Shown here one piece after another: positions 4,327 through 31,235 of a stretch of DNA of 32,828 bases. The stretch is from Woeseiaceae bacterium. GTDB lineage: Bacteria > Pseudomonadota > Gammaproteobacteria > Steroidobacterales > Woeseiaceae. The position numbers and the translations under genes were made by a program. The DNA lies in NCBI GenBank assembly GCA_021773155.1, contig JAJFKQ010000098.1, positions 1 to 32,828 on the forward strand, written 5' to 3'. Within the stretch, counting starts at the first letter, position 1; each line of letters opens with the position of its first letter. A model generated the notes under the pieces. The model was not told where the DNA came from. It saw only the letters and a list, made by a program, of their open reading frames with translations, and did not search any database.

Positions 4327-5511
4327 TCATTTCGCGTAGCGTTTTGCGACCTGTCGGTAAGCATCGCGAAACGGAATGCCATCTTCGCGAACCAGGCGAT
4401 AGGCCTCGGCTGTTGCAAAGATTCCGTCGTCGAGGGTGATGTTGTCGGGCTGAAAAGTGAGGCCCTCGAGGACATAGGCCATGATGTCGACGCTGTCGAT
4501 TGCGAGGTCGATAGAGCGAAATAACGGTGATTTCAAACGCTGTAGATCACGGTGGTATCCGGATGGTAGTTTGGCGGTGATCATTAACGATTCGTCGAGG
4601 CAGGCCTGGGCTGTTGCGGATGATGCGCGAAGCAATTCGAGTACATCCGGATTACGCTTTTGCGTCATGATCGAAGAGCCCGTGGTGACCTCTGCAGCCA
4701 GCGATATGTAGGCAAACTCCTGTGTGTAAAACATCAGGAGGTCACTGGCCATACGGCTCAGGTCCTGCAGCAGCAGGGTGATCTCGAACAACAAAGCGCT
4801 TTCTGCCTTGCCACGTGACAGTTGTGCTGCTGTTACCGGGCTCTGGGTCGAATCGAAATCAAGTTTGGCGGTGGTCGCGTCCCGATCCAGTGGCAAGCCG
4901 GGTGTACCGTAGCCGGCCGCACTGCCCAGAGGGTTCTTGTTAATGCGCTTCTTTACCAGCCGCAGGCCATCACAGGCGTCAGCAAAGCCTTCGTCGAATC
5001 CGCCGCACCACAGTGCAACCGATGACGGCATCGCATGCTGCATATGGGTATAACCCGGGAGTTCAATTTCACCCTGGCGTTCACTCAAGGCGCTGATCGA
5101 GCCACGCAATTCAGTAACTCGCAACGCCAGGTCGCTGGCCGCATCGCGAAGATACATTCTGAGTGCAGTAAGAACCTGATCGTTTCTTGAGCGACCAAGG
5201 TGCAGGCGCCCACCGGCTGGGCCGATTGCATCCGTCAACCGGGTTTCGAGCGCGGTGTGAGCATCTTCGTCTGCGAGGCTGATGTGCCAGTCGCCTGCGG
5301 CGAAGCTGTTGTTCAGGGCCTTCAGACCGTCGCGGATTGCGGCGCAGTCCTCCGTGCTGATCAAGTCCTGATCCGCGAGCATTTCGGCGTGCGCGATCGA
5401 GCCGCGTACATCATAGGGGATGAGACGGGCATCGAGTAAATGATCTTCTCCAGCCGTGTAACGCAGTATGCGCTCGTCGAGTGGCAAACCCCTTTCCCAG
5501 AGCCGGCTCAC
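4327..5511 (-). CDS. argH: argininosuccinate lyase
   Basis: Signature GSSIMTQKRNPDVLELLR; LGRSRNDQV. Confidence 0.96.
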   Translation of the reverse strand: MSRLWERGLPLDERILRYTAGEDHLLDARLIPYDVRGSIAHAEMLADQDLISTEDCAAIRDGLKALNNSFAAGDWHISLADEDAHTALETRLTDAIGPAGGRLHLGRSRNDQVLTALRMYLRDAASDLALRVTELRGSISALSERQGEIELPGYTHMQHAMPSSVALWCGGFDEGFADACDGLRLVKKRINKNPLGSAAGYGTPGLPLDRDATTAKLDFDSTQSPVTAAQLSRGKAESALLFEITLLLQDLSRMASDLLMFYTQEFAYISLAAEVTTGSSIMTQKRNPDVLELLRASSATAQACLDESLMITAKLPSGYHRDLQRLKSPLFRSIDLAIDSVDIMAYVLEGLTFQPDNITLDDGIFATAEAYRLVREDGIPFRDAYRQVAKRYAK

Positions 5512-6437
5512 GATGCGGTACTTTGCTCGGCCGGCGTCAGGCCGCTAATATCATCGACGACCAGCGTGCCGGTGCCTTCATTCGTGAAGACTTCCAAAAG
5601 AATACTGTCGGGTAACTTGCTGGAAATGACGTGTACTCGTTGTACTCCGTTGGCAATTGCTGAGTCGATAGCGTCCGCCTTTGGCAACATGCCATCCGCG
5701 AGACTGCCGGATTTCCGTAGTTTCCTGAGTGCCGCACGATCGATATAACTGATCAGCGAGGTCGGATCGTTGACGTCCTCGAGGATGCCCGCAGCACCGG
5801 TCGCCATCAGCAGTTTCTCGGCATTAAGCTCGGCGGCAATCGCAGCGGCAACCGTATCAGCGTTAATATTCAGTATCGTGCCGGACTCATCACAGGACAA
5901 CGGGCTGACAACGGGCATCAGTCCGTTGTCGAGTTGCTTCTTGAGAATGTCCGCGTCGACAGAGTCGATATCACCAACAAAACCGTAGTCGACTGGTGAC
6001 TCTCCGTCACGTTCGACCAGCGGTCTCTTGTGCGCACGAATCAGGCCCGCGTCAACGCCGCTAATCCCGACGGCCGGAATCTGCAGATCGCGACAAGTTG
6101 CGAGAATGCGGGTGTTGATCTGACCGTTCAAGACCATCGTCGCGACGTTTAAAGATTCACCGTCTGTCACGCGGCGGCCATCGACAAAGGTCGTCTCCAG
6201 CCCGAGCGCGGATGCAAGTTCAGTCGACTGTGGTCCACCGCCATGAATCAGAACCACGCGGATACCGACCTGATACAAAATCCCGACCTGCTCCATCAGG
6301 GCCCTGGTTTTCTCCCGGTCCACGAAAACCTCACCGCCCGCTTTGATAACAAAAACCTTGCCCTTGAAGAGCCGAATGTACGGCGCAGCATGTTTGAGTG
6401 CCGAGACGACAATCGCACGATCTTTCTGGGTGCTCAT
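5508..6437 (-). CDS. argB: N-acetylglutamate (N-acylglutamate) kinase
   Basis: Amino acid kinase motifs VIKAGGEVF, VLIHGGGPQ, LNINADTVAAAIA; about 309 aa with no C-terminal GNAT domain. Confidence 0.93.
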   Translation of the reverse strand: MSTQKDRAIVVSALKHAAPYIRLFKGKVFVIKAGGEVFVDREKTRALMEQVGILYQVGIRVVLIHGGGPQSTELASALGLETTFVDGRRVTDGESLNVATMVLNGQINTRILATCRDLQIPAVGISGVDAGLIRAHKRPLVERDGESPVDYGFVGDIDSVDADILKKQLDNGLMPVVSPLSCDESGTILNINADTVAAAIAAELNAEKLLMATGAAGILEDVNDPTSLISYIDRAALRKLRKSGSLADGMLPKADAIDSAIANGVQRVHVISSKLPDSILLEVFTNEGTGTLVVDDISGLTPAEQSTAS

Positions 6438-7441
6438 GATCGTCCTCCAAGCATTTGGTGCAGTACCGCCATCTGCGCAAGCATGCGATTGCGCGCCTCC
6501 GGAATCACTATGCTCCGTGGTCCATCGAGGATGTCATCAGCAACAACGACGCCGCGCCGAACAGGCAAACAGTGCATGAAACGACAGTTGTCTTTTGCGT
6601 TGGCGAACCAGGGCTCATCCACGCACCAGTCCAGATATTTTTCACGCAGTTTTTGGTCATTGAGTTTGTCGCCATAATGCCGCGTGGATGACCATGACTT
6701 CGCGTAAATGATATGAGCGCCTTCCATCGCTTCACTGCGTTGATCGGTTTCGCTGATTGAGCCGCCAGCCGCAACAGCCGCTGATGCAGCCTTCTGCATC
6801 AATGCTTCAGGCAGTTCGAATCCTTCGGGACGCAATACCGTTACATCCATGCCTCGCTTCGCAGCCATATGCAGCGTCGACGCCGGTACGGCCAATGGTA
6901 GTGCGCGAGGGTGATAGGCCCAGCTCAACACAAACTTGCCACCGTTGGCGGGCACCTTGAGGTCGTCCATGGTCTTCCAGTCTGCGAGGTTCTGGCAGGG
7001 GTGGTTCATCGCTGACTCCATATTGATGTAGGGCGTATCGATGAGATCTATGAGCGACGTAAACTCGTTCTCCTGCATATCGGTCTCAATACTCTTTCGC
7101 TCTGCGAAAGCACGTATGCCAATCGCGTCACCATAGGACGCAATTACCGGAACAGCTTCACGTATATGCTCCGCTGCAGCGCCGTCCATGACGATGCCGG
7201 GTCGGGTTTCGAGTCCATGAATAGACATGTCGGGTGAGATGACGAACGAGCCACCGCCAAGGCGCACCATCGCCGCCTGAAACGAGGCAAGCGTTCTCAA
7301 AGACGGACTTAGAAACAATAGCGAAAGCACCTTTCCTTTGAGAGCTTCCGGTTCCGGGTTCGAGTCAAGGCGGCCTGCGAGCTCTACGAGTGCCTGTATC
7401 TCTTCGTTCGAAAAATCGGCCAAATCATTAAAAGCTTCCAT
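6434..7441 (-). CDS. argF': N-acylornithine transcarbamylase (AOTCase/SOTCase family, ArgF')
   Basis: FLSPSLRT carbamoyl phosphate motif, YINMESAMNHPCQNLADW, AYHPRALPLAVPAS, FMHCLPVRRG; start set at ATG 7441 (MEAFNDL) after an AAAGGA Shine-Dalgarno. Confidence 0.9.
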   Translation of the reverse strand: MEAFNDLADFSNEEIQALVELAGRLDSNPEPEALKGKVLSLLFLSPSLRTLASFQAAMVRLGGGSFVISPDMSIHGLETRPGIVMDGAAAEHIREAVPVIASYGDAIGIRAFAERKSIETDMQENEFTSLIDLIDTPYINMESAMNHPCQNLADWKTMDDLKVPANGGKFVLSWAYHPRALPLAVPASTLHMAAKRGMDVTVLRPEGFELPEALMQKAASAAVAAGGSISETDQRSEAMEGAHIIYAKSWSSTRHYGDKLNDQKLREKYLDWCVDEPWFANAKDNCRFMHCLPVRRGVVVADDILDGPRSIVIPEARNRMLAQMAVLHQMLGGRS

Positions 7442-7454
7442 CAAAAAAAATCCT

Positions 7455-8645
7455 TTAGTCAATTGCAGGCGCAATATCTTTTAACGCCCCTGCAAGGTGG
7501 TCAATGTGTCCGGGTTCGAGAACGAGCGGTGCGAGGATTCGGAGAACTTCGGGATCGTTGCTGGTGCCTGTAAGGATGTCGTGATCGAGCAAAGCATCGC
7601 GAACCTCGATAGCAGGGCGGTCGCAAACGAGTCCAAGTAGCAGGCCCATACCCTGAATCCTCTTGATCGGTCCAACGACGCATTGCTCGCGAATCGCGAT
7701 CTCTGAGCGCCGTACATTCATCAGCAAATCTTCGTTCTCAATGGCGTCGATAGTGGCGGAAATCGCGGCTGCAGCGATGGGACCGCCACCAAATGTTGAG
7801 CCGAGGTCACCCGCACCAAATTTTGCTGCAATCGTGTGGCTGCACATTACGGCACCACATGGAATGCCACCGCCCAGCGCTTTGGCGCTGGTCAGGATGT
7901 CGGGTTGAATTTGATGTGCCTGCACCGCGAAGAAATGACCGCAACGACCGATACCTGACTGCACTTCGTCGGCAATCAATAGTGCACCGTGCTTTTGAGT
8001 TGCGGCGCGTAACGCGTGAATAAATTCTGCCGAAAGATCGTAGGCACCGGCAATACCCTGAACGGGTTCGAAAATAACGGCCGCTATATCAGTACCGATC
8101 ATTTCCTCGGCCGCCGCGATGTCATCACGTGGAATGAAATCAACTTCGAATGGCTTCGTCGGAAAGCCGTACCAGCGGTCCGAGTTCCAGGTCACAGCTG
8201 CGGCCGCTGCAGTGCGTCCGTGAAAGCCCTCGGTAATAGCGAGCACTTTCTTGCGACCCGTTGCCATACAAGCCATGCGCAATGCATTTTCGTTCGCTTC
8301 CGCGCCTGAGTTAACGAAAAACACCCGGTCCAGCCCGTCCGGCGCAACGCCGACAAGTTTCTCTGCAGCTTCAGCACGAATATCCAGAGCCACGGCATTA
8401 CTCTGGAATAACAGTTTGTTACTTTGTTCGGTTATGGCCTTGACCAATTGCGGGTGACCATAGCCGAGTGCGACGACTGCGTGGCCGCCGTAAAGATCGA
8501 GTATGCGCCGGCCATCCTTCGTAAATATATCGCAGCCACTGGCTCGTTCCGGTACGAACGGTAGTTGCCCGTACACAGGGATAGTGACACTGGCTTCGCG
8601 AATTCGCGGATCGAGCATGAGCAGCTGTTCATTAATCGTCGACAT
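7455..8645 (-). CDS. argD: acetylornithine aminotransferase family (class III PLP aminotransferase)
   Basis: FVNSGAEANENALRMA, FHGRTAAAAAVT, LLIADEVQSGIGR, TSAKALGGGIP; start at ATG 8645 overlaps the argC stop codon. Confidence 0.93.
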   Translation of the reverse strand: MSTINEQLLMLDPRIREASVTIPVYGQLPFVPERASGCDIFTKDGRRILDLYGGHAVVALGYGHPQLVKAITEQSNKLLFQSNAVALDIRAEAAEKLVGVAPDGLDRVFFVNSGAEANENALRMACMATGRKKVLAITEGFHGRTAAAAAVTWNSDRWYGFPTKPFEVDFIPRDDIAAAEEMIGTDIAAVIFEPVQGIAGAYDLSAEFIHALRAATQKHGALLIADEVQSGIGRCGHFFAVQAHQIQPDILTSAKALGGGIPCGAVMCSHTIAAKFGAGDLGSTFGGGPIAAAAISATIDAIENEDLLMNVRRSEIAIREQCVVGPIKRIQGMGLLLGLVCDRPAIEVRDALLDHDILTGTSNDPEVLRILAPLVLEPGHIDHLAGALKDIAPAID

Positions 8646-9706
8646 CAGGTCCACCCCGGCGCAGCAGCTGTTAAACCGGATGATTCCGGAAGGTTCCAGA
8701 GACGGTTCATCCACTGGATAGCGCCGCCCGCAGCGCCCTTGACAAGATTGTCTATCGCGCTCATCACGACCACTGATTCGCCGTCTGTTGCAACGCCAAT
8801 GTGGCACATATTGCTCGCGACAACGTTCTTGAGCCTGGGAGTGGCGCTGACTATTTCAACGAATGGCGAATTCGCATAGGCCGAGGTATAGACCTCCCGT
8901 AGCTGTTGTTCGCTGACCGTTGCCTTGGCTCTGGCCTGTAACGTGACATGGATACCTCTCGAAAACGGTCCTGAGTGAGGCACAAAATGTACGGTAGTGT
9001 CGCGGCCACTGGCAGCAGTCGCAAGTCTGGCAATTTCCGGTGAATGACGGTGCGCGAGTGGCTTGTAGGCATACAGATTACTGTTGCGTTCCGGATGGTG
9101 CGTTCCTGCTTGCGGACTGCGCCCGGAACCAGTGCTGCCGGTTACACCGGAGACAAATACTTCACTCATCGTCAGGCCTGAGCGCATCAGAGGCACTGTC
9201 GCCAGCAACGTCGCCGTCGCGAAGCAGCCCGGATGGCCAATGTGAGGTGTAGTAACCGCGTCGAGGTGTTCGGGGACAGCGCAGGAGAAATCGTGCAGCA
9301 ATTCCGGTGCGCCATGTTGGCCGCCGTAGACAGACTCCCAGGCGGCCTGTTCGGAGTAGCGAAAATCGGCCGACGAGTCCACAACATGCATGTTCACGTT
9401 TTTGTTTTTCGCGGCGTTTAACGCTGCTTTGATAATCCCGGCTGACGCTCCATGTGGCGCGGCAGAAAACAATGCGACATCGCTGCCATCCTCTACGGCA
9501 TTCAGCCATTCATCGCTGGCAACAAAAGAAACTCCAGCCAGCGCCTGAGACAGGTGAGCAAACGTGTCTGCAATCGCCTGATTAGCCCGACTGTCAGAGA
9601 CGGCAGCAGCCAATTCGAAATTAGCATGCCCGGTGATAAGTCGCAGTAATTCACCACCCACATAGCCACCGGCTCCCAGCACGACGGCCTGAATTGGCGA
9701 GCTCAT
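8645..9706 (-). CDS. argC: N-acetyl-gamma-glutamyl-phosphate reductase
   Basis: GAGGYVGGELLRL and the active-site motif GHPGCFATA. Confidence 0.95.
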   Translation of the reverse strand: MSSPIQAVVLGAGGYVGGELLRLITGHANFELAAAVSDSRANQAIADTFAHLSQALAGVSFVASDEWLNAVEDGSDVALFSAAPHGASAGIIKAALNAAKNKNVNMHVVDSSADFRYSEQAAWESVYGGQHGAPELLHDFSCAVPEHLDAVTTPHIGHPGCFATATLLATVPLMRSGLTMSEVFVSGVTGSTGSGRSPQAGTHHPERNSNLYAYKPLAHRHSPEIARLATAASGRDTTVHFVPHSGPFSRGIHVTLQARAKATVSEQQLREVYTSAYANSPFVEIVSATPRLKNVVASNMCHIGVATDGESVVVMSAIDNLVKGAAGGAIQWMNRLWNLPESSGLTAAAPGWT

Positions 9707-10758
9707 GCAGCCTCCCTGCCGAGCAGAGCGGCAATCTTGTCACCCAGCGCTACGCCATTGGAAAGCGCGTTGATTGCCGGTAACGATATACGTTCCGCAA
9801 TTTGCTGTACCCCAACATCATTGTCCGTAGCAGGCCCCGTGACAACGGCGGGTTCGATGTTGTATTCATCGCGTAAGATTTTCGCGCCACCCCAGGCGGA
9901 AACAGGGTCATTGGCACACAACACGACGGCGGTCAGGGCATCGCGAATTTGCTCGTCGGCGAGTATGGCGGCGACACCGTACGCTCCGAGCAATCCATCG
10001 CCGAGTTCCAGAACGATTATATCCGGCGCTTTGGCGCCGAGATCCGTCAACAGCGAGCGCGTCAACGCCGGACCGTTTTCGGCCGTAGTCGTGACAATCC
10101 CAAGATCGGAGAAGATCATCGTGTCTGTGGCGCCAGCGTCTTCCATGGCGAGTATATCGCGCCGCAATGAAACACCCGTCGCCTTGCAAGCGGCGACATT
10201 CAGTCCCAGGTGCCGTAAGCGCCCGACAATGGCACAGGCTGCTGCGGTCTTGCCGGAATCCATGCAGGTTCCGGCGAGAGCTACAACCGGCACACCATTC
10301 ATTTTCAATTGCGCATCCTTATCGAGTGTTGCGGAACCAACACGGGCCGGGACGCCGATGCGCTCGCCAAGATAGGGAAACTCGAGAACAGTACCGAGTA
10401 CTTCGCAGTCGAACGGTGCGCCGACATCCGGATTCGCCGAATCACATATTCCGATGACGCCACCGATATTCAGGATTTGCAAATGATCACCTTTCGCCAG
10501 CTCGGTCGGCAGGTGTCCCGAATAGCCACGCAGCGCATTGCGATGGCCGAGTGCGCCGACGACGATGTCGCCCATCGTGACCGTAGCCATGCGACCTGAT
10601 GTCAGCTCCAGCTGGTTGTAACGTGATTTGTTATTCAGCACACGAACGGCGATGAGCACGCCTTCCTCACACGGAATGTCCGCAGACAATCGAAGCTCGG
10701 AAGCCAGATCATTGTGCTGCGCGACCGAGGCCACTTTATCGACAACGATGCTCTTCAT
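9703..10758 (-). CDS. uncharacterised P-loop protein embedded in the arginine operon
   Basis: About 160-aa N-terminal domain, then ALAGTCMDSGKTAAACAIV (Walker A) and PDIIVLELGDGLLGAYG; true start ATG 10758 with an AGGAGA SD rather than the longer track ORF; overlaps argC by 4 bp. Confidence 0.85.
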   Translation of the reverse strand: MKSIVVDKVASVAQHNDLASELRLSADIPCEEGVLIAVRVLNNKSRYNQLELTSGRMATVTMGDIVVGALGHRNALRGYSGHLPTELAKGDHLQILNIGGVIGICDSANPDVGAPFDCEVLGTVLEFPYLGERIGVPARVGSATLDKDAQLKMNGVPVVALAGTCMDSGKTAAACAIVGRLRHLGLNVAACKATGVSLRRDILAMEDAGATDTMIFSDLGIVTTTAENGPALTRSLLTDLGAKAPDIIVLELGDGLLGAYGVAAILADEQIRDALTAVVLCANDPVSAWGGAKILRDEYNIEPAVVTGPATDNDVGVQQIAERISLPAINALSNGVALGDKIAALLGREAA

Positions 10759-10759
10759 T

Positions 10760-11968
10760 TCAATCTCCTGCCGCTCTTGTTTGTAGCGATCCTGGTAGCG
10801 AAAGGATACGTGCGTAGCCGAGGGCATCGCCGGCCGTCCACTCGCCTGCCGATTCGCCGTAGACGCCTTTGGTGGCAGCCAACAATGAGTGCGGTGATGT
10901 CGTGCCCTCAATGAACAACTGCCCCGGTCGCAGTGCGAACGTAACCGTGCCGGTAACACGCTTCTGAGATGACATGAGAAAGGCTTCGATATCGTCGCAG
11001 GCCAGATCGAGTTGTTTGCCTTCGTGCACGAGGTCGCCGTATACAGCGGATACGCTGTCTTTTATTCGGCTCTGCTGTCCGCTGAGAACCAGTTTCTCAA
11101 GTTCGCGGTGAGCCGTGATTAGTGTAATCGCAGCGGGTGCCTCGAACGCAACGCGACCCTTGGTGCCGAGTACGGTATCGCCGAGATGTATACCGCGTCC
11201 GATGCCATAGCTGCCCGCGAGTACTTCGAGTTTTTCGATCAACTCGACAGGTTCGAGCGCCTCTCCATCCAACGCAACAGGCACGCCTGCGTTGAACTCC
11301 AGCGTATGGCTGGAAGCTTGCAATGGCTCGGAGAACGCGTTGGCTGACAGCACCCAGGCAGATTCGGGGATCGAATTCTCAGACGTCAAAGTTTCCTGAC
11401 CACCAATTGTAATACCCCAAAGGCCACGATTAATTGAGTACGCCGAGCCTTGTGCCGGCAATGGCAGGTCATGCTTCTCAAGATAGGCGAGCTGTTCGTC
11501 GCGTGCCCAGTTGTTATCACGCACCGGCGCAAGGACTTCGAGCCCGGGGTTGAGTGTCCGCAGAGCGACTTCGAAACGAACCTGGTCATTGCCGGCTGCG
11601 GTACAGCCGTGAGCAACGGTCGTTGCGCCACGATCGGTTGCGATCCTGGCCAATCGTTCCGCCTGCAGTCCACGCTCTGCGCCGACGCATAATGGATATG
11701 CCTGGCCGCGAAGTACATTGCCGGCGATCAAGTGTTTGATGACGGTGTCGAAGAAATCCAGCTTCGCATCGATTAATACATGTTCAATCGCACCCAGTGC
11801 CATGGCGCGTTCTTGCAGGGCGATGGCCGCTGCCGCGTCGATACCACCGGTATCAACACAGGCTGTGATTACGTCGCGGCCGTAGTTTTCCTTCAGCCAC
11901 GGAACGCAAAACGATGTATCAAGGCCTCCCGAAAACGCGAGAATAATGGGTGATGTGTCCTTGCTCAC
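10760..11968 (-). CDS. argG: argininosuccinate synthase
   Basis: LAFSGGLDTSFCVPWL PP-loop; HGCTAAGNDQVRFE. Confidence 0.95.
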   Translation of the reverse strand: MSKDTSPIILAFSGGLDTSFCVPWLKENYGRDVITACVDTGGIDAAAAIALQERAMALGAIEHVLIDAKLDFFDTVIKHLIAGNVLRGQAYPLCVGAERGLQAERLARIATDRGATTVAHGCTAAGNDQVRFEVALRTLNPGLEVLAPVRDNNWARDEQLAYLEKHDLPLPAQGSAYSINRGLWGITIGGQETLTSENSIPESAWVLSANAFSEPLQASSHTLEFNAGVPVALDGEALEPVELIEKLEVLAGSYGIGRGIHLGDTVLGTKGRVAFEAPAAITLITAHRELEKLVLSGQQSRIKDSVSAVYGDLVHEGKQLDLACDDIEAFLMSSQKRVTGTVTFALRPGQLFIEGTTSPHSLLAATKGVYGESAGEWTAGDALGYARILSLPGSLQTRAAGD

Positions 11969-11986: not shown

Positions 11987-12433
11987 CTAGGAACGAGCTG
12001 CGTGCTCGATCCGGGTAATGAGGTTTTTCTGTGCGATACCGGACTCGGTCGCAACGAATACGGTGTCATCGCCGCCAATATTGCCGATTACTTCGGGCCA
12101 GTCGCAGCGGTCGAACGCGAGCGCAACACGCTGTGCGGCGCCAATCGCAGTTTTAACGACCAGCAGATTGGGGCCCGCTGGCTGGATGGTTCGAAGTAAC
12201 TCGGCGACAGCAGCAAACTGGTCGTCATCGGCCTGGCGGCTAGTGGGCAGCTCGTAACCTGCAGCGGTCTTGATCGCGCCGAGTTCCTTGAGGTCACGAC
12301 TGACGCTGGATTGCGTTGCGACATAGCCCGCGGATTGCAACGCGGCCACGAGCGAGCCCTGCGTTTCCGCAGGTCGCTTAAGCAGCAATCGCCGTATCGC
12401 GTCGCGTCTGGGTTCGTGATTTCCGTTGGGCAC
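11987..12433 (-). CDS. argR: arginine repressor ArgR (GTG start)
   Basis: N-terminal wHTH ATQSSVSRDLKELGAIK; C-terminal GNIGGDDTVFVAT. Confidence 0.94.
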   Translation of the reverse strand: MPNGNHEPRRDAIRRLLLKRPAETQGSLVAALQSAGYVATQSSVSRDLKELGAIKTAAGYELPTSRQADDDQFAAVAELLRTIQPAGPNLLVVKTAIGAAQRVALAFDRCDWPEVIGNIGGDDTVFVATESGIAQKNLITRIEHAARS

Positions 12434-24990: not shown

Positions 24991-25030
24991 TCGCGTCCTT
25001 TACTGGCTCGAAAGATCAGGAACCAAGCAC

Positions 25031-25993
25031 ATGCAGGCGACGGCAATTGCACAGCCGAACATTGCGCTCATCAAGTACTGGGGCAAGCGTGACGTCGAAC
25101 GGAATCTGCCGGCGGTCGGCTCGATTTCGGTCACATTGCGCGAGCTGCATACCGAAGTCAGTGTTGCATTGAGCTCCGATCTGCGAAGCGACGAATTGTT
25201 CGTGAATGGTGAGGAGAGCCAGCCGTTGCTGCCGCGGATCAGCCGCTGCCTGGATAATGTCATCGGCACGCAGCGTTTACGCGCGAGAATCACAAGTCGA
25301 AGCAACTTCCCGATAGCCGCAGGACTGGCTTCCTCCGCATCCGCATTCGCTGCGACAACGGTGGCTGCCGCCAGCGCTGCGGACCTGTCATTTAGCACCG
25401 AAGAACTGGCGCGACTCGCCGGGCAGGCATCCGGATCAGCGGCGAGATCGTTATATGGCGGATTCGTCGAGCTAAGAAACTCAGGCGACACCATAAAGCT
25501 GGCGGCACTACGCGAGGTTGATTCCTGGCCGCTGCAGGTTGTTGTGGCAATAACCGAAACCGGACCGAAGCCAACCGGCTCGACGGAGGCGATGGAAATA
25601 TCTCGCGAGACTTCACCTTTTTACACCAGCTGGATTGAGCAGCAGGACCAGGATCTGGAAATTGCGCGGACGGCCATCCTGCAGCGGGACTTCGCACAGC
25701 TCGCGACTGTTGCCGAACACAATTGCCTGAAGATGCATTCGGTCATGTGGGCATCTCGCCCACCGATGGTCTATTGGAATTCGGCAACGATGCGTTGCAT
25801 GCAAACAGTGCGGCAACTGCAAACAGAAGGGTGCCAGGTATTTTTTACGATCGATGCGGGTCCGCAAGTTAAAGCGGTGTGTTTGCCGGAGGATGCCGAG
25901 GCAGTGAGCAAGGCACTCGCTGAGACGCCCGGTGTGCAGGAAATAATGATGAGTGGCCTGGGTTCCGCGGCTCGACTGGTCGACAAAACGTGA
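25031..25993 (+). CDS. mvaD: diphosphomevalonate decarboxylase
   Basis: ALIKYWGKRDVERNLPAVGSISVTL, GLASSASAFAA, GSAARSLYGGFVEL, FTIDAGPQVKAV; start ATG 25031. Confidence 0.93.
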   Translation: MQATAIAQPNIALIKYWGKRDVERNLPAVGSISVTLRELHTEVSVALSSDLRSDELFVNGEESQPLLPRISRCLDNVIGTQRLRARITSRSNFPIAAGLASSASAFAATTVAAASAADLSFSTEELARLAGQASGSAARSLYGGFVELRNSGDTIKLAALREVDSWPLQVVVAITETGPKPTGSTEAMEISRETSPFYTSWIEQQDQDLEIARTAILQRDFAQLATVAEHNCLKMHSVMWASRPPMVYWNSATMRCMQTVRQLQTEGCQVFFTIDAGPQVKAVCLPEDAEAVSKALAETPGVQEIMMSGLGSAARLVDKT

Positions 25994-26973
25994 CAAACAA
26001 AATATCAGCCAGCGCGCCGGGCAAGGTCGTGCTGAGTGGCGAGTACGCCGTACTCGACGGCGCTCCAGCGATTTGCATGGCGGTTAACCGACGCGCGCGT
26101 GCAGAGATTTCGGATATCGATTCCGACTACAGTGAAGTCAGGGCTCCCGGTTTCACCGACATCGTTGGCCGATTCAAATCGAACGATGGCGGCATCCAGT
26201 GGCAGGACGGGCAAGCGTCTTTTGGGGTCGTGGATGCGGTCTTAGGTGCAGCGGGTCTTGAACAGACAGCTGCGAAGCGCATTATTCTGAATACGAGCGA
26301 ATTTGTCGACGCTGCAACGCAGCGGAAAATAGGCATTGGTTCAAGCGCTGCTATCACCGTTGCGTTTTGTGCGGCTGCAGTCAATTCGGCTGACGTTGCC
26401 GCGCTGGCAACGCTCGCACAAGGCGCGCATGCGAACCTGCAGGGCGGGACCGGTAGCGGAGTGGATGTCGCATGTAGCCTGTCAGGTGGACTGATCGAGT
26501 ACCGCATGCAGGGTGCGTTGGTTACGGCACTGAAATGGCCTGAAGGTTTGTCATATCGCCTGCTTTGGACCGGCGTTGCGGCCAGTACACGCGAGAAACT
26601 GTCAAAACTGGCGGCGAGTATTAGTAAGCCGTCTCGGACAGCTCTGTTCGGCGCAGCCGAAGGTCTGGCACTGGCCTGGCGGAGTAACGACGCCCAACAA
26701 GTTATTGCAGAGTATCGGGACTACTGCCGGCAGCTGTACAAGTTCAGTGTCGATCACGACCTGGGAATTTTCGACGCCGGTCACGCAGCGCTTTGGCATG
26801 CGGCGAGCGCTGCTGGCCTCACCTACAAACCCTGCGGTGCCGGCGGTGGTGATATCGGTATCCTGATGGGGACGGATATCGCAGAATTGAATGCATTTAC
26901 CGGCAAGTACTCGACGAATTGCTCGGTGCTCGATTGTGAGATGAGCCCGACGGGCGTTAGGATTGACGCATGA
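25990..26973 (+). CDS. phosphomevalonate kinase (GHMP family)
   Basis: SAPGKVVLSGEYAVLDG, KIGIGSSAAITVAF, CGAGGGDIGIL; 4-bp overlaps with both neighbours in the mevalonate cluster. Confidence 0.82.
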   Translation: MTNKISASAPGKVVLSGEYAVLDGAPAICMAVNRRARAEISDIDSDYSEVRAPGFTDIVGRFKSNDGGIQWQDGQASFGVVDAVLGAAGLEQTAAKRIILNTSEFVDAATQRKIGIGSSAAITVAFCAAAVNSADVAALATLAQGAHANLQGGTGSGVDVACSLSGGLIEYRMQGALVTALKWPEGLSYRLLWTGVAASTREKLSKLAASISKPSRTALFGAAEGLALAWRSNDAQQVIAEYRDYCRQLYKFSVDHDLGIFDAGHAALWHAASAAGLTYKPCGAGGGDIGILMGTDIAELNAFTGKYSTNCSVLDCEMSPTGVRIDA

Positions 26974-29201
26974 GCAATTCGCGACTCTCGGGGCTGTACA
27001 AGCTCAGCGTTTCTGAACGTATAGACCAACTCGAAAATCTGGGTTGGCTGGCATCTGATGCTGCTCGCGACTTGCGCGCAGGACGCCAGGTGATCTCTGC
27101 CATTGCGGCAGACAAGATAATTGAGAATGTCATTGGCGTATTCGGACTGCCATTGGCGATCGCGCCAAACTTTATCGTCAACGAACGTGAGTGCGTTGTG
27201 CCGCTGGTTGTCGAGGAGCCATCTATCGTTGCTGCGCTGAGTAGTGCCGCCGCCTTGGCGCGGTCCACTGGCGGATTCTCGGCAACACTCAGTGAGTCCT
27301 TGCTGGCGGGGCAAATTCACATTGTCGGCGTTGCAGATGTCGATGCGGCGATATCGCTGTTACGTGATGCTGCCGGTGAGCTTGTCAGCACTGCCAACGG
27401 TGTCCATCCACGCTTGCTGGCACGCGGTGGCGGTGTCCGTGATGTCGAGTTTCGGGCGTTGCAACTTGAGGATGGATCGCCACTGATCGCTACCCATGTG
27501 CTGGTTGATACTTGCGATGCCATGGGCGCGAACCTTACGAATACGATCTGCGAATCGATCGCGCCCAGAGTCGCGGAAATTTGTGGCGGCGACATTGCTC
27601 TCAGAATCCTCTCGAACCTGGCTGATAGATCAGTATGTAATGCGACGGTTCGCTATGCAGTCGATGATCTTGCCAACGACTCGATGAGCGGCGAAACGGT
27701 CCGGGACCGAATCGTGCTAGCCAGTGATATCGCGATTGTTGATCCTCATCGAGCTGCGACACACAACAAGGGTGTTATGAATGGTATTGACGCACTTGCA
27801 ATTGCGACGGGTAACGACTGGCGGGCGATCGAGGCAGGCGCACATGCGTTTGCTGTTCGTAATGGTGAATACTCTTCGCTGACCCGGTGGTCGGTCGCTG
27901 ACAATGGCGATCTGGTGGGTGAAATCGCGGTGCCGCTGAAACCGGGCATCGTCGGCGGAACGTTGTCATCAAATCCCGCCGCGGCATTGGGACTCGTGAT
28001 TGCCGGTGTGCAATCAGCGGCACAGTTGGCCGAGTTGATGGCCGCAGTGGGACTGGCGCAGAACTTCGCCGCGTTGCGGGCGTTGGTGACCAAGGGCATT
28101 CAGGAAGGACACATGCGATTGCATGCGCGCAGTATTGCAACGGCAGCCGGCACACCAGCTGACCGACTCGATGAGATTGTTGACAGAATGGTTGCCAGCG
28201 GCGATGTAAAAGACTGGAAAGCAGCGGAAATACTTGGCAAGCCGGATGGTTCCGATACCGATGATCAGGCTGCCGTAGCGACGGCAGCGGGTAAGGTTAT
28301 TTTGTTCGGTGAGCATGCGGTCGTCTATGGACGGTATGCACTTGCTGTTCCGGTCGCGGATGCCGTACGAGCAGCCGTAACACCATGCGATGAAAGTACG
28401 ACACTTGTGGTGAAAGACTGGGGCCTGCATAGCACGGTGGACCGTGAAAGCACCGATGGTATCGATGCTGCTGTAAATTTGATTCTTGAAGAGCTCAGTG
28501 TCGGCGATAAGAATTTCAGTATCAGCGTTACGTCCAGCCTGCCGCGCGGTATGGGTTTGGGATCATCGGCGGCACTTGCCGTGGCGATTACTCGTGCTGT
28601 GGCGCGGTGTGTCGGCACAGAAGTTACTGACGAGCGAGTTAACGCGATCGCCTTCGCTTGCGAAAAACTTGCTCACGGTACGCCGTCTGGAATCGACAAC
28701 ACTCTGTCCTGCTATAGCGAGCCCATGTTATTTCGGAATTCAGGTTCGCTCGAGATTCAGACCCTGCAACTTGAGGAATTTCCGCCGCTCGTCATCGGCC
28801 TTAGCCACGCAGCGGGGCCGACGCACGAACAGGTGGCAGGAGTCAGGTCACGGTTCGATCAGGACGCACGACGTTATGAATTGCTGTTCGACCAGATCGA
28901 CGAGATCAGCCAGTCAGGCGCAAAAGCGCTACTGGCGCGGCAATACGACAAGCTGGGTCGGTTGATGAATGTCTGCCATGGCCTGTTGAACGCAATCGAG
29001 GTATCAACACCCGACCTTGAGAATATGGTTGCAATCGCCCGCCAGAATGGCGCGCTTGGTGCCAAGCTGACCGGGGCAGGTGGCGGCGGCTCAATAGTGG
29101 CTCTCTGCCCGGGGGCAGAAGACCAGGTGCGAGCCGCGCTGCATCAGGCGGGCTACAGTACATTGCGGTCCAGTACGCCCAAAGGAGACTCCGTTGAGTG
29201 A
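26970..29201 (+). CDS. HMG-CoA reductase (class II)::mevalonate kinase fusion
   Basis: Residues 1-~424 HMGR: VVEEPSIVAA (E83), DAMGAN, ATHNKGVMNG (K267), ATGNDW (D283), GHMRLHARSIA (H381). Residues ~434-743 mevalonate kinase: GKVILFGEHAVVYG, PRGMGLGSSAALAVA, GTPSGIDNT, LTGAGGGGSIVAL. Confidence 0.95.
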   Translation: MSNSRLSGLYKLSVSERIDQLENLGWLASDAARDLRAGRQVISAIAADKIIENVIGVFGLPLAIAPNFIVNERECVVPLVVEEPSIVAALSSAAALARSTGGFSATLSESLLAGQIHIVGVADVDAAISLLRDAAGELVSTANGVHPRLLARGGGVRDVEFRALQLEDGSPLIATHVLVDTCDAMGANLTNTICESIAPRVAEICGGDIALRILSNLADRSVCNATVRYAVDDLANDSMSGETVRDRIVLASDIAIVDPHRAATHNKGVMNGIDALAIATGNDWRAIEAGAHAFAVRNGEYSSLTRWSVADNGDLVGEIAVPLKPGIVGGTLSSNPAAALGLVIAGVQSAAQLAELMAAVGLAQNFAALRALVTKGIQEGHMRLHARSIATAAGTPADRLDEIVDRMVASGDVKDWKAAEILGKPDGSDTDDQAAVATAAGKVILFGEHAVVYGRYALAVPVADAVRAAVTPCDESTTLVVKDWGLHSTVDRESTDGIDAAVNLILEELSVGDKNFSISVTSSLPRGMGLGSSAALAVAITRAVARCVGTEVTDERVNAIAFACEKLAHGTPSGIDNTLSCYSEPMLFRNSGSLEIQTLQLEEFPPLVIGLSHAAGPTHEQVAGVRSRFDQDARRYELLFDQIDEISQSGAKALLARQYDKLGRLMNVCHGLLNAIEVSTPDLENMVAIARQNGALGAKLTGAGGGGSIVALCPGAEDQVRAALHQAGYSTLRSSTPKGDSVE

Positions 29202-29763
29202 TTTTCACCGAACCGTTTCGTCGGAGAGCGAGGAGCTCATACTGGTTGATTCGGGCGATAATGAAATCGGCTACCGATCGAAGGCGGATTGCCATGACGG
29301 GGGCGGTATCTTGCACCGAGCTTTTTCGCTGTTTCTGTTCAATGCAGACGGCGAATTGTTGCTGCAGCAACGAGCTGTAGCGAAGCGACTGTGGCCCGGG
29401 TTCTGGTCAAATAGTTGTTGTAGCCATCCGCGGCGCGGTGAATCTTTACAGACAGCGACAATGCGACGCCTGGACGATGAACTCAATATCGCGGCGGAAC
29501 TCGAATTCGTTTATCACTTTTGCTATCAGGCCGAATTCGATAATGCCGGCTCGGAGAACGAGCTGTGTCATGTGTTTCTCGGCAAGGTAGACGGCGAACC
29601 GCGCCCGAACGACAGTGAAATCGCGAGTATCCGATTTATTTCAGCGGATGATCTCAGCGCCGAACTTGCCGCACACCCACAGCGGTTCACTCCCTGGTTC
29701 ATTAAGGAGTGGCGAGCATTGAGAGAGGTTTACGCGGGGCAGTTGGCCCGTTACGCAATATAG
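29194..29763 (+). CDS. idi: isopentenyl-diphosphate delta-isomerase type 1 (Nudix)
   Basis: FWSNSCCSHPRRGES, MRRLDDELNI, ENELCHVFLG. Confidence 0.93.
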   Translation: MSDFHRTVSSESEELILVDSGDNEIGYRSKADCHDGGGILHRAFSLFLFNADGELLLQQRAVAKRLWPGFWSNSCCSHPRRGESLQTATMRRLDDELNIAAELEFVYHFCYQAEFDNAGSENELCHVFLGKVDGEPRPNDSEIASIRFISADDLSAELAAHPQRFTPWFIKEWRALREVYAGQLARYAI

Positions 29764-31235
29764 CGATAGTACTCGATGCCCAGATCGGCGAAGTGACGGT
29801 CGTCACTAACTCCGACGTGGTCGATGACGAATTCGTTTCGGGCGACGTAATCCAGACCATCAACGCGTCGCCCGTCGTGCAGTGCTTCGTACTGTTGACG
29901 GTCGAGATCCAGCGTCAATTTCATGGCGTCCGCGAAGTGAATTTTCGCAGCGGCTTCGCGCCAGTTTTCTGCCATGAAAAACGGAATTACCTCGGCAGCA
30001 TCACCGCTGCCGTAGCCCAGTGTCAGCACTTCTTCGCCCGCTGACAGCGAGTTTTCTTCGAGAGCCTGTTCAAATCCTGCCGCCATCCAGGCAGGCAGCG
30101 CTGCGGTATACAGATTGCCAAGGTCGAGCATCGTGTCGCTGCCCAGTCGCAGCTTGTCGAGGATTTCACAACGATAATGACGTGAAGCCCGGAACGTTCT
30201 GAGAACGGCCATCGACAAAGGGTAAGCCTCGAATTGCAGACGTTCGGGCTCCGCCAGATTGGAAACGTCAGGTTTGCTGATCATCTCAGCGAGCACGGCA
30301 TCGACATCGACGCCCGCTTCGTAACAGTAGGACGCGAGTTCAGCGCGATCTTCGGCATTGCCTTGTGCGAGCGCGAATAAATAGGAGACCGCCCAACCGG
30401 TTTCCGGCATGCGGCGGTAAGGTCGATGCAGAAACAGGGTGCGTAGTGAGCGCAGGTGCTCTATAGAATTGAGGGCGCGTTTCTCATACATGTCATTCAG
30501 AGCATGCAGAGTTTCGTCGATGTAACAGGTGGTCGAATACTTGCCGTTAAAAATCGGAAAGTCCTGGACCTGATGTGATTCGGTGCGATCCTGGCCGCAG
30601 AAACGCAGCATCGGCTTGCGAAAATCCATGATGCGATAGTCAGACGCTGAGCCGGAGGCAACCAGATCAACGACGGCGAGTTGCGGATCTTCTTCGAGCA
30701 GCATTGCGACTGCGCCAGCACCCTGCGTGGGCTCGCCAGAGCTGCCGCGCGCGTATTCGGCGATGTCGGCGCAAACGACAATTGCCTGACTACCGGCGCC
30801 GTCGAGAGCAAGGTGGCGGATAGCCCCTTTCATGCCGTAGACGCCGCCAAGGCAAGCGTGTTTGAACTCCGGAACCTCACAACTGCGGGAGATCGGTGCT
30901 TTGCCACGCGCCACAAGCGCCTGGTCGACCATGCCTTTTACGATGATCGCGCCAGCAGAGTTGTCAGTGCTCGATTCGGTGCCGAGACCAAGGAATTTCA
31001 CACGGCTGGGGTCGATGTCATATTGGTCGATCAGCCGGATAACGGCGTTTGCCGCCATCGTGTAAACACTGTGATTCGGCCCGCGAACGCGGAAGCTGCG
31101 CCCCACAATCTCACGAATTTTCGGCCATTGACTGCCTGTCCAGTCGCACCAGTCTTCCAGCCACACGCGATACGGCGGTATGTAGGCCGCCAGGCCGCTG
31201 ATTCCGATGAGTTTCTTGTGTTTGGATTGATTCAT
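29751..31235 (-). CDS. mvaS: hydroxymethylglutaryl-CoA synthase
   Basis: LGTESSTDNSAG, HACLGGVYGMKGA (catalytic Cys), GEPTQGAGAVAMLL, FLHRPYRRMP (catalytic His); 494 aa. Confidence 0.9.
   Translation of the reverse strand: MNQSKHKKLIGISGLAAYIPPYRVWLEDWCDWTGSQWPKIREIVGRSFRVRGPNHSVYTMAANAVIRLIDQYDIDPSRVKFLGLGTESSTDNSAGAIIVKGMVDQALVARGKAPISRSCEVPEFKHACLGGVYGMKGAIRHLALDGAGSQAIVVCADIAEYARGSSGEPTQGAGAVAMLLEEDPQLAVVDLVASGSASDYRIMDFRKPMLRFCGQDRTESHQVQDFPIFNGKYSTTCYIDETLHALNDMYEKRALNSIEHLRSLRTLFLHRPYRRMPETGWAVSYLFALAQGNAEDRAELASYCYEAGVDVDAVLAEMISKPDVSNLAEPERLQFEAYPLSMAVLRTFRASRHYRCEILDKLRLGSDTMLDLGNLYTAALPAWMAAGFEQALEENSLSAGEEVLTLGYGSGDAAEVIPFFMAENWREAAAKIHFADAMKLTLDLDRQQYEALHDGRRVDGLDYVARNEFVIDHVGVSDDRHFADLGIEYYRYIA

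Follow-up and report, generated by a model that had tools for sequence, protein, structure and literature searches.

Arginine synthesis is committed, and regulated, at the formation of N-acylglutamate, and gaps at this step make many bacteria appear auxotrophic in genome-based models. The arginine operon of the marine Woeseiaceae bacterium studied here raises the question of which protein takes this step, and whether an uncharacterized P-loop protein encoded between argG and argC, referred to as X, is that protein. Our analysis makes it likely that X performs the first committed step by acylating the α-amine of L-glutamate, succinyl being the most likely group, with the product passing through a SOTCase-type ArgF' and being deacylated by an M20 enzyme. 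The assignment of X as the synthase draws on its fixed position in the operon, its mutual exclusion with the bifunctional NAGS/K, the absence of other synthases, the SOTCase-type residues of the accompanying ArgF' and an intact Walker A motif.

Gene X within the arginine operon

The window, i.e., the whole stretch of 32,828 nucleotides that was analyzed, is a contig of a 2.7-Mb assembly that is 77% complete. Gene X (9703..10758, minus strand; start codon at 10758, stop at 9703-9705) encodes a protein of 351 residues, the candidate synthase of N-acyl-L-glutamate and most likely of its N-succinyl form, and is the second gene of an operon ordered argG-X-argC-argD-argF'-argB-argH, with argR (11987..12433; Pfam Arg_repressor N and C) upstream, all on the minus strand. 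Four of the neighbors exceed the cut-offs of their family models, namely argG (10760..11968; TIGR00032, 304.5 bits over), argC (8645..9706; TIGR01850, 305.2 bits over), argB (5508..6437; TIGR00761) and argH (4327..5511; TIGR00838). The argD-type transaminase (7455..8645) has PRK03244/TIGR00707 as its best matches, under their cut-offs, and argF' (6434..7441) encodes a knotted transcarbamylase. The layout read by the initial annotation is borne out: X shares a 4-bp ATGA overlap with argC (start at 9706) and lies 1 bp from argG (end at 10760), the sequence motifs quoted for it are present, no argA, argJ or argE is found among the scanned arg-operon proteins of the window, and ArgB (309 residues) consists of a single AA_kinase domain with no fused GNAT or NAT domain. 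No curated family in Pfam or NCBIfam claims X, the best matches being sub-threshold MobB matches at the P-loop, and no paper on the gene was found in the literature searched; the closest named records sharing its operon are Woeseiaceae metagenome assemblies. Elsewhere in the window, at 25025-31235, this gammaproteobacterium carries a mevalonate-pathway cluster. It encodes a diphosphomevalonate decarboxylase, an HMG-CoA synthase-like protein, a GHMP kinase, an IPP isomerase-like NUDIX protein and a 743-residue protein that joins HMG-CoA reductase to a mevalonate-type GHMP kinase, a fusion that seems unusual.

The locus was compared across 119 related genomes and on contigs of further GTDB genomes, and homologues of X were counted as distinct sequences of at least 40% identity. 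A match to X is present in 96 of the 119 relatives, the weaker ones (about 30% identity) being paralogues outside the operon. Every orthologous locus inspected, comprising the first 50 examined and 80 more on contigs of GTDB genomes, is an arg operon. The order argG-X-argC is found around 110 of the 111 distinct X sequences, and the remaining one is arranged as argR-X-argC followed by argB; all 111 are thus located in arg operons, rather than mostly outside them, which the initial annotation had named as a finding that would count against its proposal. Four distant X proteins (43-49% identity), found in other families of the class, lie in the same argG-X-argC order, and in three of them, for which whole operons are available, the operon is rearranged to argD-argF'-argB-argH-argG-X-argC. 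In a genome of another class (G732), a compact arg cluster (L241, 7089-10739) is reduced to argR-X-argC-argB, combining X with just the enzymes of step 2 (the kinase) and step 3 (the reductase), with no argG, argF' or argH nearby; this arrangement points to a role of X in the first steps of the pathway. With 111 distinct homologues and many residues invariant down to 43% identity, the operon position of X is far beyond chance, and its recurrent linkage to arg genes across different gene orders has no easy explanation other than a role of X in the pathway.

X and the known acylglutamate synthases

Across the 119 genomes, X orthologues are confined to eight families (f1, f2, f3, f6, f10, f11, f12 and f15) and the NAT domain PF04768, always fused to ArgB as NAGS/K, is confined to six others (f4, f5, f7, f8, f14 and f16), so that X and the acetylglutamate-synthase domain of NAGS/K exclude each other. 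In families f9 and f13 both X and the NAT domain are missing and ArgB has no match, which fits arginine auxotrophy. Taking the 14 ArgB-bearing families as independent, a split this clean would arise by chance with a probability of 1 in 3003, an optimistic value given their shared ancestry; the families are not phylogenetically independent, and a small number of events may account for the division within the order. X and NAGS/K, the bifunctional ArgB of Xanthomonas-type bacteria, fill one and the same place in the pathway in sister families of a single order, yet NAGS/K systems differ in having a GNAT-fold NAT domain on the kinase, an AOTCase-type ArgF' and an M20 gene beside argB.

The initial annotation further suggested checking whether homologs of X co-occur with argF' and with loss of argA and argJ, and stated that a canonical ArgA or ArgJ elsewhere in the genome would speak against it. 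Co-occurrence with argF' and with loss of argA, argJ and the NAGS/K fusion is what we observe in the 119 genomes and in the distant X genomes. ArgJ is found in none of the 119 genomes (0/119), nor is full-length ArgA, with nothing over the cut-off of the ArgA model, whose matches are the kinase half of ArgB plus scattered weak GNAT fragments; the four genomes with distant X likewise yield neither enzyme. X fills the gap left by the absent ArgA, ArgJ and NAGS/K. In one X genome of 1.6 Mb that is 98% complete (G077), the sole PF00583 GNAT is RimI and no DUF1611 match is found. In several near-complete genomes, then, no protein other than X came into view as a candidate for the acylation. A stray GNAT gene adjoining argH in a complete X genome (G099, L040:1475-1993) was considered as a general synthase and rejected, because the other listed X flanks, two of them (L038 and L042) from its own family, have no such GNAT adjoining argH.

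The probable acyl group and its removal

AOTCase carries Glu92/Asn185/Lys302, and SOTCase carries A/S/P/V/Q - P - V/I/E at these positions (PMC4581275), the first of which is used by GapMind in Bacteroidetes (PMC7311316). ArgF' of the window has Ala90/Pro182/Val299, an N-succinylornithine-type triplet that fits the SOTCase pattern. Among distinct ArgF' sequences readable at all positions, those linked to X carry A-P-V, A-P-A, P-P-E or V-P-E in 84 of 84 cases and those linked to NAGS/K carry E-N-K or E-N-Q in 11 of 11; the third position is Ala in 15 of the 84, a residue that the published SOTCase list lacks. Operons of distant X, with P-P-E and V-P-E, fit that list exactly despite their diverged sequences. 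The additional succinate-binding arginine of the B. fragilis SOTCase, R178, was tried as a fourth marker and dropped, since the position varies. These SOTCase-type triplets beside X argue that the intermediates of X operons are most likely succinylated and that N-succinyl-L-glutamate is the most likely product of X. The choice between acetyl and succinyl, which the initial annotation left undecided, is thereby tilted toward succinyl, as judged from the ArgF' residues. Similarly, the Bacteroides pathway (synthase BT3761, SOTCase BT3717) has a SOTCase-type ArgF' and predicted N-succinyl intermediates (PMC7311316), and its synthase shares more than 50% identity with Cabys_1732, which is known to be an N-acetylglutamate synthase (PMC7311316).

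The deacylases present in X genomes are in line with succinylated intermediates. In an X genome that is 100% complete (G106), the only M20 protein is DapE (TIGR01246, 552 bits) and no ArgE is found. DapE is confirmed by its model in all four X genomes tested, a DapE-like M20 protein is present in every X genome examined, and in the NAGS/K genomes an M20 gene adjoins argB (3 of 3 checked). DapE is the succinyl-diaminopimelate desuccinylase, and in X genomes it may double as the N-succinylcitrulline desuccinylase.

The same observations bear on the other roles that X could have. X might make N-acetyl-L-glutamate from acetyl-CoA, with the ArgF' pattern reflecting lineage drift, as the models for ArgB and ArgC do not tell acyl groups apart and DgcN, a P-loop acyltransferase for which N-acetylation of D-glutamate with acetyl-CoA is reported, offers a loose precedent; the uniform division of the ArgF' specificity positions between X-linked and NAGS/K-linked operons, together with a complete X genome that has DapE alone and no ArgE, makes this unlikely. 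Also unlikely is that X serves another step or the control of a succinylated pathway, e.g., deacylation or regulation, and that the synthase is an unrecognized protein elsewhere. P-loop proteins do have varied roles, and acylation and deacylation both have no operon gene except X, which could serve either. However, deacylation would be provided for by DapE or DapE-like M20 proteins in the X genomes and acylation is otherwise uncovered, X replaces NAGS/K exactly, and the shortest cluster pairs X with argC and argB rather than with late genes. A part in carbamoylation, or as a supplier of carbamoyl phosphate, was rejected because NAGS/K genomes carry out that step without X.

Fold, relatives and possible chemistry of X

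What holds of the initial annotation, in all tests that could be run, is its core idea of a non-orthologous acylglutamate synthase; what is not supported is placement in the DUF1611/DgcN family (PF07755 + PF17396), for which X has no Pfam or NCBIfam assignment, a different N-terminal domain and a non-significant profile-profile match. The likeness comprises two domains with the P-loop domain C-terminal in both, 'ATG' and 'LCxxDP'-like motifs at similar places, and a weak sub-threshold Pfam match near the P-loop in some X proteins and paralogues. However, the Walker A of DUF1611/DgcN is GTDCxVGKK, as against the canonical GxxxxGKT of X, and its N-terminal domain is the Rossmann-like DUF1611_N, as against an all-beta domain in X. 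Window X has no match to PF07755 (cut-off 25 bits), and neither the best of the orthologues scanned (17.3 bits) nor one more orthologue (20.8 bits) exceeds the cut-off; DUF1611_N (PF17396) scores 72 bits in the true DgcN of the window's genome and is not found in X; and hhalign of X against DUF1611 gives a probability of 2% and an E value of 0.022, the aligned part being residues 150-337 and the DUF1611 alignment being shallow (9 rows). DgcN is a key gene of the pathway described in PMC12363236. The true DUF1611/DgcN gene of the window's own genome lies beside an MR_MLE epimerase gene on contig C126 (L001, 107-2115), apart from X. That N-acylglutamate arises through DgcN-DgcA (D-Glu to N-acetyl-D-Glu to N-acetyl-L-Glu) with X as an accessory, a reading to which this gene pair lends itself, is very improbable, since DUF1611 exceeds its cut-off in 58 of the 119 genomes, some of these matches being X paralogues, and in none of the near-complete X genomes G077, G099 and G116, which rules out a universal source of this kind, and since acetylated intermediates would be expected, contrary to the SOTCase signature.

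Closer relatives of X are two paralogue groups, G1 and G2, joined to it by profile comparisons (E values of 4e-37 and 5e-27); in the tree, X, G1 and G2 each fall on one side of a fully supported branch, with the four distant X proteins in between. In several genomes the G1 paralogues (L052-L067, about 28% identical to X) are encoded together with a flavin-reductase-like protein and an M20 hydrolase; this trio may be a further system acting on N-acyl amino acids. The G2 paralogues (L068-L071, about 26% identical) lie outside arg operons, and L070 has an over-threshold CbiA/MobB-like P-loop. As clues to the chemistry of X both groups were set aside, the G1 context being this trio and the G2 context uninformative.

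The AlphaFold model of full-length X (pLDDT 79) comprises an all-beta N-terminal domain (residues about 20-126; 10381..10701, minus strand), in which residues 22 to 126 form strands only and for which no match was found, and a C-terminal SIMIBI-class P-loop domain (residues 152-351; 9706..10305, minus strand; domain model pLDDT 92.8). The best PDB matches of the latter in Foldseek are dethiobiotin synthetase (DTBS), HypB, SRP GTPases, CTP synthetase and MinD, and its SIMIBI-class fold is evident from the Walker A together with Foldseek probabilities of 1.00 to DTBS, HypB, FtsY and MinD; the whole protein is matched over the P-loop domain alone. Other searches were less informative: BFVD returned nothing useful beyond CTP synthase, phmmer found no match in the PDB, a profile search of the PDB lists dethiobiotin synthetase alone and non-significantly (E 1.5), and none of PF03205 (MobB; 16.8 versus 26.6 bits), TIGR00176 (19.1 versus 76.2 bits) and PF01656 exceeds its cut-off in X. 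In the canonical Walker A GTCMDSGKT (residues 163-171; 10246..10272, minus strand), G163, M166, G169, K170 and T171 do not vary in X, in distant X or in either paralogue group. Further residues are invariant across X and distant X, namely K192, T194, G195, R200 and D201 of a KATGVSLRRD motif (residues 192-201; 10156..10185, minus strand) and E251, G253, D254 and G255 of a Walker B-like DIIVLELGDG stretch (residues 246-255; 9994..10023, minus strand), whereas K44, Y47 and N48 are specific to X.

We infer the reaction of X, its succinyl donor and the role of DapE from these data as follows. The beta domain and the P-loop domain would jointly bind glutamate and the acyl donor, and X would acylate the α-amine of L-glutamate, most likely with succinyl. 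The acylated glutamate would then pass through ArgB, ArgC and ArgD to the SOTCase-type ArgF', and the acyl group would finally be taken off by an M20 desuccinylase, with DapE as the best candidate. No acyl-CoA site or acyltransferase signature was recognized in X. In dethiobiotin synthetase and CTP synthetase, ATP phosphorylates an oxygen that is then displaced by an amine or ammonia. BioD and the CTP synthetase amidoligase domain, which with HypB and SRP GTPases are the best Foldseek matches, share with X a GT(D/C)xxxGKT P-loop followed by a lysine motif, yet they are only about 13-18% identical (TM 0.57-0.67), act in a different pathway and have no counterpart of the extra N-terminal domain carried by X. 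This resemblance of the P-loop domain raises the tentative option that X is an ATP-dependent, dethiobiotin-synthetase-like succinate-glutamate ligase that needs no acyl-CoA, in which ATP would phosphorylate the carboxylate of succinate and the glutamate amine would attack, giving N-succinylglutamate, ADP and phosphate. Use of succinyl-CoA instead of succinate plus ATP is about equally possible.

The Bacteroides synthase BT3761 is a GNAT, whereas a P-loop protein would take that step here. If X is the synthase, the enzymes making acylglutamate would gain a fold related to neither GNAT nor ArgJ, and, should the ligase option prove true, X would represent a new enzyme family and bring new chemistry to the committed step. 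The succinylated arginine pathway, known from Bacteroidetes, would extend to Proteobacteria. Reports often describe Woeseiaceae as abundant in marine sediment, and X would close the arginine gap in this family and in its Steroidobacteraceae-type relatives.
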